A stretch of DNA of 64,000 bases from Rhodohalobacter barkolensis (GTDB taxonomy: Bacteria; Bacteroidota; Rhodothermia; Balneolales; Balneolaceae): assembly GCF_002834295.1 (NCBI RefSeq), contig NZ_PISP01000002.1, forward strand, positions 434,001 through 498,000, in the 5' to 3' direction. Numbering within the stretch: the first letter of the stretch is position 1; each line of letters begins with the position of its first letter. The position numbers and the translations under genes are program-made. The notes under the pieces were generated by a model. The model saw nothing but the letters and a program-made list of their open reading frames with translations, was not told the DNA's origin and made no database searches. This document shows, piece by piece, positions 53,672 through 55,991 of this stretch.

Positions 53672-54157
53672 ATGAATGTTATTCATCCCATGATTTCTAA
53701 AAAATTCGATAAGAAAGAAGGCGAAGAAATCTTGCTCAGAAGCAATCAACACCCGTCCATTTTTTATGGCGGCTTGGTGTTTTTGATCTATAATATCGCC
53801 GTGACTTTTTCAGGGGAGATGAATATAGCCGGAGTGATTTTTATTGTGGTCGGATTAATTTGGGCATTCGTGGGATTTTTGAAATGGACGTATAAAGAGT
53901 ATGTCCTTACGAATAAGCGATTGGCCATTATTTCCGGGTATTTTTATCTGCAAACAGAGGAGTATCCGTTAAATAAAGTAGATAACGTTAGTTTGTATCA
54001 AAATTGGTTAGATAAACTTTGGGATAAAGGAATCGTTACACTTTTTGGAATTAGTATCCAAACAAGGAGAATCAAGGGACTTAAAAGCGCAGAAAGATTT
54101 AAGGATGCCATTCACAGCCAGCTTTCTGTTGATTCTGAACCTTATTTTTCGTCTTGA
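53672..54157 (+). CDS. PH-domain (bPH2/YdbS-like) membrane protein
   Basis: 161 residues. Two hydrophobic helices (about 33-48 and 52-70) precede a PH-type domain with YVLTNKRLAIISGYFYLQTEEYPLNKVDNV and GIVTLFGISI, the classic bPH2 run of strand, turn, then VSLYQNWLDKL. These small proteins link the bacterial membrane to unknown functions. It precedes the repeat island by about 70 bases. Confidence 0.82.
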   Translation: MNVIHPMISKKFDKKEGEEILLRSNQHPSIFYGGLVFLIYNIAVTFSGEMNIAGVIFIVVGLIWAFVGFLKWTYKEYVLTNKRLAIISGYFYLQTEEYPLNKVDNVSLYQNWLDKLWDKGIVTLFGISIQTRRIKGLKSAERFKDAIHSQLSVDSEPYFSS

Positions 54158-54230
54158 AATTTGAAGACATCTAAATCAGAAAGACGATACCTCAGGAGTC
54201 GCTCTTATCCACCACAGTGATTGGCAAAAC

Positions 54231-54301
54231 AGGAGGCTCCGATGGAGCCGTAAAATTATGGCAATTCCACAATCTACAAACAGGTAACTCCTTCGGAGTT
54301 T
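54231..54301 (+). repeat. Composite palindromic repeat, left copy (R1)
   Basis: It combines two hairpins, GGCTCCGATGGAGCC (54234-54248) and AACTCCTTCGGAGTT (54286-54300), joined by a 37-base linker. The right copy at 55042 is in the same orientation and nearly identical over 72 bases, with one indel and few mismatches. The two copies flank the broken transposase, as REP/BIME units do in other bacteria. Confidence 0.8.
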
Positions 54302-54388
54302 GCTTGATCTCAATACAGTGATGCAGCTGGGGAAAAAGATATTCATCATGTAATTAAACACCATGATTTACAATCGATATCAAAAACT

Positions 54389-54407
54389 GATTCCGTAGGA
54401 GCGACCT
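54389..54407 (+). repeat. Short REP-like palindrome overlapping the transposase stop
   Basis: GATTCCGTAGGAGCGACCT shares the core TCC-GTA-GGA with the hairpins at 55201 and 55253 and ends on the last base of the transposase stop codon. Its two arms differ (GATTCC versus GGAGCG), as if it joined halves of two REP types. Confidence 0.6.
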
Positions 54408-54870
54408 TATTTAAAATCAAACAAATACTCGTTTCTGTAATCCACACCAAATTTGTTCAAAAAACTAAGATATTCATCTTTGAAACTTCTTTTTTTATGA
54501 TGCTGCTCTTGTTGATTGATGTAATTGATGACGGTATTTATTTGTGATTGTGAGAACGAGAACACCCCATACCCTTCTTGCCATTTGAATCTTCCCGTTA
54601 CCCATCTTCTCCTGTTAATAAATTGATTGCTTGCCACTTTAATCTCCTTAACCAATGTTGGTAAAGGTATTGTTGGTTTGTATCCGATAAAGAGATGAGC
54701 ATGATTAGGCATACAGTTGATAGCCAACATTTTTGATCCACGATTTGATATCAAACCTGTAAAGTATTTATGAAGCTCTTCTTTATGTTTTTGTGGGATT
54801 AGGTACTGTCTAAATTGAACAGCAAATATGATATGATATGTAAATATATTTGTGAATATGTATTAGGCAT
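54407..54870 (-). pseudogene. IS200/RAYT-like HUH transposase, frameshifted by an extra CATAT
   Basis: The intact frame would run from ATG 54870 to TAA 54407 and encode 152 residues. Residues MPNTYSQIYLHII are read from the ATG; at the + strand segment about 54823-54840 the opposite strand reads CATATCATATCATATTTG, three copies of CATAT. With two copies the frame continues FAVQFRQYLIPQKHKEELHKYF, with three it shifts and stops soon after. The rest of the protein is intact: AINCMPNHAHLFIGY with the HUH-type HAH, FKWQEGYGVFSFS, and the catalytic-tyrosine region INTVINYINQQEQHH. A gene ending by pentamer slippage is the simplest reading. Confidence 0.85.
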
Positions 54871-55041
54871 CGCGAAGTAATTATAGTTTTTACTTATATG
54901 ATGCCGTATTTACCTGTGCCTTACAGATAAATTTAATATCACTAATGATTCAAAATGAATATTCTGTTTTTAGCAACTTGAAAAATATTGAAAGTATTAC
55001 TCCTTTTGGACGCTCTTTTTCATCACAATAAATTGCAATAG

Positions 55042-55113
55042 AGGAGGCTCCGATGGAGCCGTTAAATTTAAGGCAATTCCACGATCTACAAACAGGTAAC
55101 TCCTTCGGAGTTT
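55042..55113 (+). repeat. Composite palindromic repeat, right copy (R2)
   Basis: It is a 72-base copy of R1 with the same two hairpins and the same linker, including GGCAATTCCAC and GATCTACAAACAGGTAAC. It lies about 170 bases upstream of the transposase start, and R1 about 105 bases beyond its stop. Same orientation as R1. Confidence 0.8.
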
Positions 55114-55200
55114 ATTTTTTGCTGAATGTAGAGTTCAACTTAGTCTTTTGAAATAGCTATACTTGAATTAGAAAAATTCTTTGAAAGGATTTTTAAACCT

Positions 55201-55271
55201 GATTCCGTAGGAATCGCCTGTTTATAGCAACTGTAAACAATATAAATAGATTCGCTCCGTAGGAGCGACCT
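55201..55271 (+). repeat. Two further REP-like hairpins
   Basis: GATTCCGTAGGAATC (55201-55215) and CGCTCCGTAGGAGCG (55253-55267) are perfect palindromes around GTA, 52 bases apart, each followed by GCCT or ACCT. The loop core matches the hairpin at 54389. They sit between the transposase region and the WbqC gene. Confidence 0.7.
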
Positions 55272-55322
55272 AATGGACTTTTTGGCATGGAATATTAAGG
55301 CTTAGAGGTATGCCACAAGGCT

Positions 55323-55991
55323 TTAGACAAGCTCATCAAATATTCTGAAACTTTCCGGGCCGTACTGAAACAACAGATCGTATAGACAGCACCAAGGTTC
55401 AAAACCGTCGAAATGCTGCCGGTACTCAGGATGTGAAAAATTCAAATCACTTCGCTGTTTGCCTTGCCGCTGATAATGACGGGCGTCATGTTCCTGGTAA
55501 TAGATTTCTGCATTCATCCGCTTTGCCAATTTATCCGGATCGGATGAATACTCTTTCATACCACTGGAGAATTTTATTTTGGCCGGGATTTCAAGCTCCA
55601 GAAATTGAAAAAGCCGTTTCCTCAGGAAAAGTGAGTAGTCGAGTAAATACTCGAAATTGTGTCCCGTCTCAATATCGGCCCGTACTTCGGGCTCATAAAA
55701 ATCGTAATAAACACTATTGCTGTAGTTAAACTTGAGCGCCCTCAGCAACGGGTTAATCCAGTCTCTGCTGTGATCAATTCGAGCCTCGTTGATCGGCTTT
55801 TTTTTATCGGTTGTTAAAACAGGTACAGAAATGTAATCTGTCCCCTCCGGTGTGCGAATGAGTGCACGGTGGGTTCGGCCTTTTCGTGACCACTGTTCGC
55901 TGTCCTGATAGACAATGGTATCAACTGCCAGCATAGTGGCCAGGTCATGAAGGTCCGGGATCAGGGTGGGCTGGAGAATGGCCAGTTTCAT
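55323..55991 (-). CDS. WbqC-like family protein
   Basis: 222 residues. LAILQPTLIPDLHDLATMLAVDTIVYQDSEQ and EQWSRKGRTHRALIRTPEG give the WbqC opening (IxQPxYxPWxGYFxxxxxAD-type text with VYxDxxQ), followed by IDHSRDWINPLLRALKFNY and the C-terminal YQEHDARHYQRQG. WbqC proteins occur in O-antigen and modified-peptide loci and are proposed to act on an amino or sugar group; biochemistry is not settled. It starts three bases after the ABC-F stop codon, so both are co-transcribed. Confidence 0.83.
   Translation of the reverse strand: MKLAILQPTLIPDLHDLATMLAVDTIVYQDSEQWSRKGRTHRALIRTPEGTDYISVPVLTTDKKKPINEARIDHSRDWINPLLRALKFNYSNSVYYDFYEPEVRADIETGHNFEYLLDYSLFLRKRLFQFLELEIPAKIKFSSGMKEYSSDPDKLAKRMNAEIYYQEHDARHYQRQGKQRSDLNFSHPEYRQHFDGFEPWCCLYDLLFQYGPESFRIFDELV

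Follow-up and report, generated by a model that had tools for sequence, protein, structure and literature searches.

In IS200/IS605 elements, the TnpA transposase binds hairpins at the element ends, and the place of the cut is fixed by pairing between two tetranucleotides, the guide at the hairpin foot and the target (family description in PMC6006769). The same survey gives Y---Q--HH as the signature of TnpA-Y1 subclass 1.2 and Y---NP as that of the class 2 RAYTs. Its Table 1 enters "no" under REP for subclass 1.2, and its text describes the group as "generally without typical terminal IS200 secondary structure features" (PMC6006769). Repeat-mediated deletion is described for Haloquadratum, where both a PATE and an element of the IS605 type have collapsed to 52-bp forms that consist of their termini alone (PMC3119063). 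The association of subclass 1.2 genes with hairpins that we describe here is unrecorded in the survey's table and text on the group (PMC6006769). Among the PubMed Central open papers listed, none was found to describe hairpins or REPs at genes of subclass 1.2.

The locus lies in the window, by which we mean the whole 64,000-nt stretch of DNA that was analysed. Two composite units, R1 (54231–54301) and R2 (55042–55113), both on the plus strand, stand in the same orientation at an offset of 811–812 nt and are 94% identical. A wider match between them covers 103 nt at 87% identity (E = 1.4e−29). Hairpin a (GGCTCC-GAT-GGAGCC) occupies 54235–54249 in R1 and 55046–55060 in R2, and is preceded by the tag AGG, which begins at 54231 in R1. 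Hairpin b (AACTCC-TTC-GGAGTT) follows at a distance of 51–52 nt, at 54286–54300 and 55098–55112. It carries the tag CTACAAACAGG on its 5′ side (54274–54284 in R1 and 55086–55096 in R2, plus strand like the hairpins), and the CTAY of this tag is a putative cleavage site. Near-identical, co-oriented copies of 71–72 bases, each with two different hairpins with the loops GAT and TTC, are what the original prediction had proposed, and it was right down to the coordinates. Each unit sits in a larger repeat block, delimited by a direct-repeat search and pattern matches. The left block (54200–54410) consists of R1 and, downstream of it, a single inverted tagged hairpin (54391–54407, minus strand; sequence and pattern matches). 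This hairpin is imperfect and looks as though the two inverted hairpins found in the right block had been fused. The right block (55011–55275) consists of R2 and, downstream, inverted relatives of both hairpins found by pattern match, a b-type one with the tag CTATAAACAGG (55203–55219, minus strand) and a tagged a-type one (55255–55271, minus strand). Rfam gave no match at the gathering threshold in 54100–55400, and a known RNA family was rejected on this ground.

Between R1 and R2 lies a Y1 HUH transposase gene (54407–54870, minus strand), so that the repeats do border such a gene on both sides as had been proposed. The Pfam Y1_Tnp match has an E-value of 3.5e−16 for the ORF read from a TTG start. 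An ATG at 54868–54870 begins the expected N-terminus and is out of frame with the remainder. The break falls at a tandem run of three CATAT (54826–54840, minus strand). The ortholog in the relative G009 has an open frame from the corresponding start. Because it is frameshifted, the window's own transposase copy is probably inactive. The gene is flanked by a bacterial PH domain protein on the left (53672–54157, plus strand) and a WbqC-like protein on the right (55323–55991, minus strand), both used as synteny markers. No TnpB was found among the three neighbouring ORFs scanned with Pfam.

The locus had been predicted to be a REP-RAYT style unit. The REP-like layout stood, but the RAYT identity of the protein did not. 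The window protein passes the NCBIfam IS200/IS605 model NF033573 (68.2 bits, cut-off 55) and fails the RAYT model NF047646 (26.8 bits, cut-off 80). Three other proteins of the genome score 28–31 bits with the RAYT model, all below its cut-off of 80; with the IS200 model, two of them reach the cut-off and the third falls short by 0.4 bits. The Y, Q, H and H of Y---Q--HH are invariant in all eight aligned proteins, the window protein included, which places it with TnpA-Y1 subclass 1.2. Membership in the RAYTs was thus rejected on the NF047646 score and on Y---Q--HH in place of Y---NP. A profile built from the window protein and seven relatives from the same genome matched eight distinct PDB sequences, all named transposases. 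They include 2xm3 (E = 1e−13) and 2vhg (E = 5e−10), two entries that we take to come from IS608 and ISDra2. The closest other protein in the window genome is 49% identical, thus several near-identical copies of a whole element are not found there. Set against 139 codons of the G009 ortholog, the window frame after the frameshift gives a dN of 0.115 and a dS of about 4, which is saturated, so that the ratio of the two can be read only as small.

A plain similarity search with R returned only four genome matches at E ≤ 0.001, so a tagged pattern was needed to find further copies. The pattern AGGNNNYTCCNNNGGAR matches the window genome (G000) 40 times, against 3 matches for the same pattern read backwards, which answers positively the check for recurrence that the prediction had named. 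Thirty of the 40 matches are clustered, in clusters of 2 to 7, with seven at the window locus and 23 in eight other clusters of 2 to 4; the other 10 are solitary. Many of the dispersed clusters are inverted pairs or tetramers, e.g., with strands −, −, +, + at C1:1611406–1611574. REPINs, for comparison, are inverted doublets of tagged palindromes. Off the locus, 28 matches in 13 stretches were located relative to ORFs; 20 fall outside any ORF of at least 80 aa, and the remaining eight overlap ORFs of 84 to 112 aa whose status as genes is doubtful.

Stem pairing was read in 36 of the 40 matches, with 4 left out. Watson-Crick pairing is seen at 6/16 in 33, at 5/17 in 34 and at 4/18 in 25 of the 36, in each case more than in any of 2000 shuffles (means 22.1, 17.1 and 8.7), although the pattern itself partly constrains pair 6/16 (Y against R), which it does not do for the other stem pairs. 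The next outer pair, 3/19, is at chance (10 paired against 10.5 expected in the 36 matches). Upstream of the b-type hairpins (28, taken from three genomes) the sequence CTAYAAAC is strongly conserved, with no such conservation ahead of 22 a-type hairpins. The conserved CTAY stands ~8–9 nt ahead of the hairpin b stem, and GTAG at the hairpin foot is absent in this family. A short palindrome with a conserved 5′ tag, dispersed, in inverted pairs and near a cognate transposase is what defines REPs and REPINs as well, but these are high-copy, with REPs usually numbering over 100 per genome where copy numbers are given in PMC2817692, against 40 pattern matches here. The recurrence across the genome, the covariation of the stems and the presence of the same unit type beside related genes (below) uphold the prediction of an unusual two-hairpin repeat in a REP-like layout.

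The window genome has 17 Y1_Tnp matches, which we grouped by eye. We took 13 places as subclass 1.2 genes or remnants (L013–L025), two matches being one broken gene (L025). The subclass motif is readable in nine of the 13; the other four are cut or broken before it. Three matches were left out, namely L027, a protein with the motif Y---NP, and two in L026, with a weak Pfam match and untranslated. The window repeat family has no pattern match within L026 or L027. The two genes of L026 (G000:C2:403000-413000) are bordered by short GC-rich palindromes; two adjacent pairs among these are spaced 26–27 nt, unlike the 50–54 nt found at subclass 1.2 loci. A second transposase family of the genome, that of L015, has a tag of its own, CTACCYATGT, with 12 matches against 0 for the control, five of them at its gene and seven elsewhere. 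A shared-word search over 11 loci of the genome gave a clear tag for L015, longer common words in L016, L017 and L024 that are partly repeat copies, and little for L018, L020, L021 and L025. At two of the nine genome loci examined (L020 and L021) we found no direct repeat across the gene. The units of L017, L022 and L023 share 81–91% DNA identity over ~700 bp; therefore some gene-bearing units multiply. The genes of L017 (C2:48547) and of L022 and L023 (C3:585305 and C2:6) have an in-frame TAA in common, at W-stop-KGYGV, and two of the three run out at contig ends. Tandem repeats of ~358 nt, the best pair 95% alike, were seen at L014:1074-1842, ~800 nt upstream of its Y1 gene. Another dispersed repeat, of ~40–45 nt, occurs at L065:2551-2593 and in similar stretches of L060, L064 and L068; the L065 stretch matches many places in G009, G030 and G036.

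Across genomes, the repeat is linked to the protein, though not strictly. A protein match was found in 20 of 30 genomes, the window genome included. Among the 30 loci fetched, the tagged hairpin is at the flanks of all five that are 56–100% identical to the window protein. It is found in two of the other 25, the broken gene L037 and the fragment L048. Besides the window genome, the pattern exceeds its control in G009 (44 against 1), G011 (26 against 5), G016 (20 against 3), G012 (13 against 1) and G030 (17 against 3), whereas the 11 genomes without a match to the window protein together hold 54 matches against 64 for the control, i.e., background. The best protein match in G030 is 37% identical and located elsewhere, and that in G012 is 44% identical, yet both genomes show the excess. 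The link between repeat and protein is therefore not strict. G011 and G016 have only a fragment or a broken Y1 gene beside their tagged hairpins; together, these four genomes indicate that a cognate gene need be neither close nor intact for the repeats to be present. The check on whether genomes without the transposase also lack the repeat thus has a mixed outcome, with background counts in the 11 match-free genomes and an excess in these four. In G011, G016 and G037, the tagged hairpin borders Y1 genes that are broken or reduced to fragments, as if the repeats outlive the gene.

The orthologous sites in two relatives show what the locus looks like with and without its gene. G009 carries the ortholog, at 79–80% identity, in the same place beside WbqC and with the same kind of repeat blocks. 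G030 has DoxX, bPH2 and WbqC in the same order with one a-b unit, and no transposase match at the site. The inverted hairpins of the right block are absent from this solo site. Thus the solo unit is not the product of simple excision, or of recombination between R1 and R2, without further change. Recombination between R1 and R2 was not adopted as the full account of the G030 solo unit, since the inverted hairpins expected to be left over are missing. At the L018 locus, both G030 and G009 lack ~1.4 kb that includes the gene, and one hairpin-bearing repeat remains, with three hairpins in G030 and one in G009 as counted by eye. G009 keeps ~20 nt resembling the end of the missing gene (within a 53-nt match, 79%), which points to deletion there and not to an untouched empty site. 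A four-hairpin cluster at L065 (three pattern matches and a fourth hairpin seen by eye) is missing from the orthologous site of G030, the matched flanks being 155 nt apart there; G009 has similar clusters elsewhere on the contig. The internal spacers of R1 and R2 are 83–86% alike within each genome (window genome and G009) and 50–55% alike between them, so R1 and R2 either exchange sequence or were renewed after the split. Twenty further WbqC loci (L155–L174, some of the stretches short) had no bPH2 match and no tagged hairpin, and so were of no help as outgroups to polarise the window site.

Hairpins of this kind are common at related genes. A scan of genome contigs gave at least 585 stretches with at least 580 relatives, of which the best 80 were used; these are the top-scoring relatives, and the figures that follow may not hold for distant members. 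By record title, the best 80 are mostly from Bacteroidota; they also include five Ignavibacteria/Ignavibacteriaceae records, a Verrucomicrobiia MAG, a Methylococcaceae MAG and Desulfonema magnum. Hairpins with a stem of at least 6 reach 3.4/kb upstream and 4.9/kb downstream within 100 nt of the gene on either side, against 0.06/kb inside the gene and 0.1–0.4/kb beyond 1.5 kb, with shuffles at or below 0.25. Of the 55 full-flank loci, 19 have such a hairpin on each side of the gene at a distance of up to 400 nt (1 of 55 at 2000–2400 nt), and many single loci have none of this stem length. With stems of at least 5, 79 of the best 80 loci have at least one hairpin within 700 nt, and the density near the gene is 4.5/kb, compared with ~1/kb in the window and in the 20 WbqC loci. 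Repeats span the gene in direct orientation at 30 of 62 loci and in inverted orientation at 32 of 62, where the controls gave 0 and 1 of 53.

The spacing of these hairpins is also constrained. Pairs 50–54 nt apart number 120, in 55 of the best 80 loci, against 34 and 15 in the adjoining 5-nt bins. The controls gave two pairs in the window, which are R1 and R2 themselves, and one in the WbqC loci. Farther out, beyond 1.5 kb from the gene, 12 pairs fall in the 50–54 nt bin and 7 and 3 in its neighbours, a weak peak that may reflect further units. CTACC occurs in the flanks near hairpins at 31 of 64 loci, thus not at all of them, against 5.2 expected. For 157 pairs 47–56 nt apart, the gap between the hairpins contains CTACC 18 times and GGTAG 33 times (51 in total), compared with 6 and 18 (24 in total) in both outer flanks together, i.e., in twice as many stretches. 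In Algoriphagus boritolerans (L119), a tag-plus-hairpin pattern has 15 matches against 0 for the control, 11 near the gene and four elsewhere.

On balance, and with little better than even confidence, we read the locus as a REP/REPIN-like system served by an IS200-side TnpA-Y1 of subclass 1.2, with the two-hairpin repeat as a minimal transposon end-joint. The 71-nt R unit would then consist of hairpin a, ~34 nt with the CTAY tag, and hairpin b. By analogy to IS200/IS605 single-strand transposition, TnpA would bind b as the left-end hairpin and a as the right-end hairpin, and would cut at the CTAY between them. The gene-bearing unit would be ~811 nt long, running between the CTACs of R1 and R2, and without it one a-b unit would be left, as at the G030 site. 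An end-joint of this kind would explain both the gene units between direct a-b copies and the solo a-b unit at the gene-less site. Either this enzyme or a relative that is intact would act in trans to spread units without a gene, as dimers and as inverted tetramers (b− a− a+ b+). We infer binding, cleavage at CTAY, single-strand transposition and the enzyme-driven spread of the dispersed copies from the parallel with IS200/IS605. Some units may also end transcripts as a side effect. Recombination between R copies that leaves a solo R could be an alternative to transposition and, on the model of the Haloquadratum PATEs, would explain part of the data equally well.

Other histories would give a similar picture. 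The locus might be an ordinary IS200/IS605-type IS with hairpin ends, accompanied by PATE-like derivatives that arose by deletion between near-terminal palindromes, so that the two-hairpin unit is a collapsed IS. The end hairpins of IS200-type elements are usually co-oriented, and we count this in its favour. The window protein belongs to the IS200 family by NCBIfam, the alike units of L017, L022 and L023 and the deletion-like trace in G009 at the L018 site fit it, and the 52-bp collapsed forms reported for Haloquadratum provide a precedent (PMC3119063). Nevertheless we regard this history as unlikely, if the most serious competitor, since many dispersed clusters are inverted pairs or tetramers and not direct left-end/right-end remnants. 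Moreover, the window gene lacks a near-identical copy in its genome, keeps its locus in G009 with a low dN, and has no TnpB among the three neighbours scanned. A classical class 2 RAYT/REP system is very improbable. Layout, tags and dispersal are REP-like, and L027, with its Y---NP, could act in trans; but the RAYT score and the Y---Q--HH motif of the window protein, the lack of GTAG at the foot of the window family's hairpins, and the lack of any match of this family in L026 or L027 all speak against it.

The palindromes could also be bystanders, i.e., independent intergenic repeats or terminators, with transposase genes coming to lie in or next to them, and with solo and double units produced by host recombination and gene conversion only. 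R1 and R2 are indeed homogenised within genomes, and repeats without a close gene exist. A lax terminator scan at the locus found 7 terminator-like sites where 0.8 were expected; one of the seven is hairpin b of R2, which has a T-rich tail. However, only 3 of the 36 matches read have a run of at least four T within 12 nt downstream, and nothing at the locus matches Rfam at the gathering threshold. Two transposase families in the same genome have different tags, the tags track protein identity, and neither the 50–54 nt phase nor the gene-centred density at the best 80 loci would be expected of bystanders. We therefore find this account improbable.

The end-joint reading can be extended, as a possibility that we hold only tentatively and would not yet expect to be correct. 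Across Bacteroidota, TnpAs of subclass 1.2 may run an independently evolved REP-like economy. In a single-strand transposon, the constant 50–54 nt two-hairpin unit would serve as the donor joint (right-end/left-end junction). Each protein lineage would read a tag of its own, and the gene would be under selection like a domesticated transposase. If the REP-like reading of the locus is right, a bond between Y1 transposases and dispersed palindromes arose on the IS200 side as well, in a group that is on record as lacking them. With several protein/tag pairs in one genome, the specificity of recognition and the way it evolves could then be tested directly, and the fixed hairpin spacing would suggest a defined protein–DNA geometry.

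Compared with described systems, the locus combines features of several. As in IS608 and ISDra2 of the IS200/IS605 family, the TnpA is homologous by profile and hairpins stand on both sides of the gene. Unlike in those elements, no TnpB was found among the three neighbours scanned, and composite two-hairpin units are present on both sides. With REPtrons (PMC3733652, PMC8266576) and with REPINs, the locus shares a transposase gene bordered by tagged palindromes, inverted doublets and copies elsewhere. It differs from these systems in having an IS200-side protein, a CTAY ~8–9 nt before the b stem instead of a GTAG at the foot, two unlike hairpins ~52 nt apart in each unit, and copies in the tens. 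The PATEs of Haloquadratum are likewise transposase-free, with palindromes like those of IS605-type elements and collapsed 52-bp forms (PMC3119063). Our dispersed units may fit that description in part, but the PATEs are archaeal, whereas the gene-less clusters here are often inverted pairs or tetramers, have a fixed phase and are linked to subclass 1.2. The TnpA-Y1 of subclass 1.2 share with the window family Y---Q--HH, a length of ~150 aa and a distribution mainly in Bacteroidetes, both in the survey and among the loci named here (PMC6006769). The survey's table and text present this subclass as low in copy number and without REPs or typical ends, whereas we find hairpins flanking the genes and, in the window genome, 13 places with genes or remnants. 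The absence of REPs is a result of the survey and not part of the definition of the subclass; what changes is thus the survey's statement.
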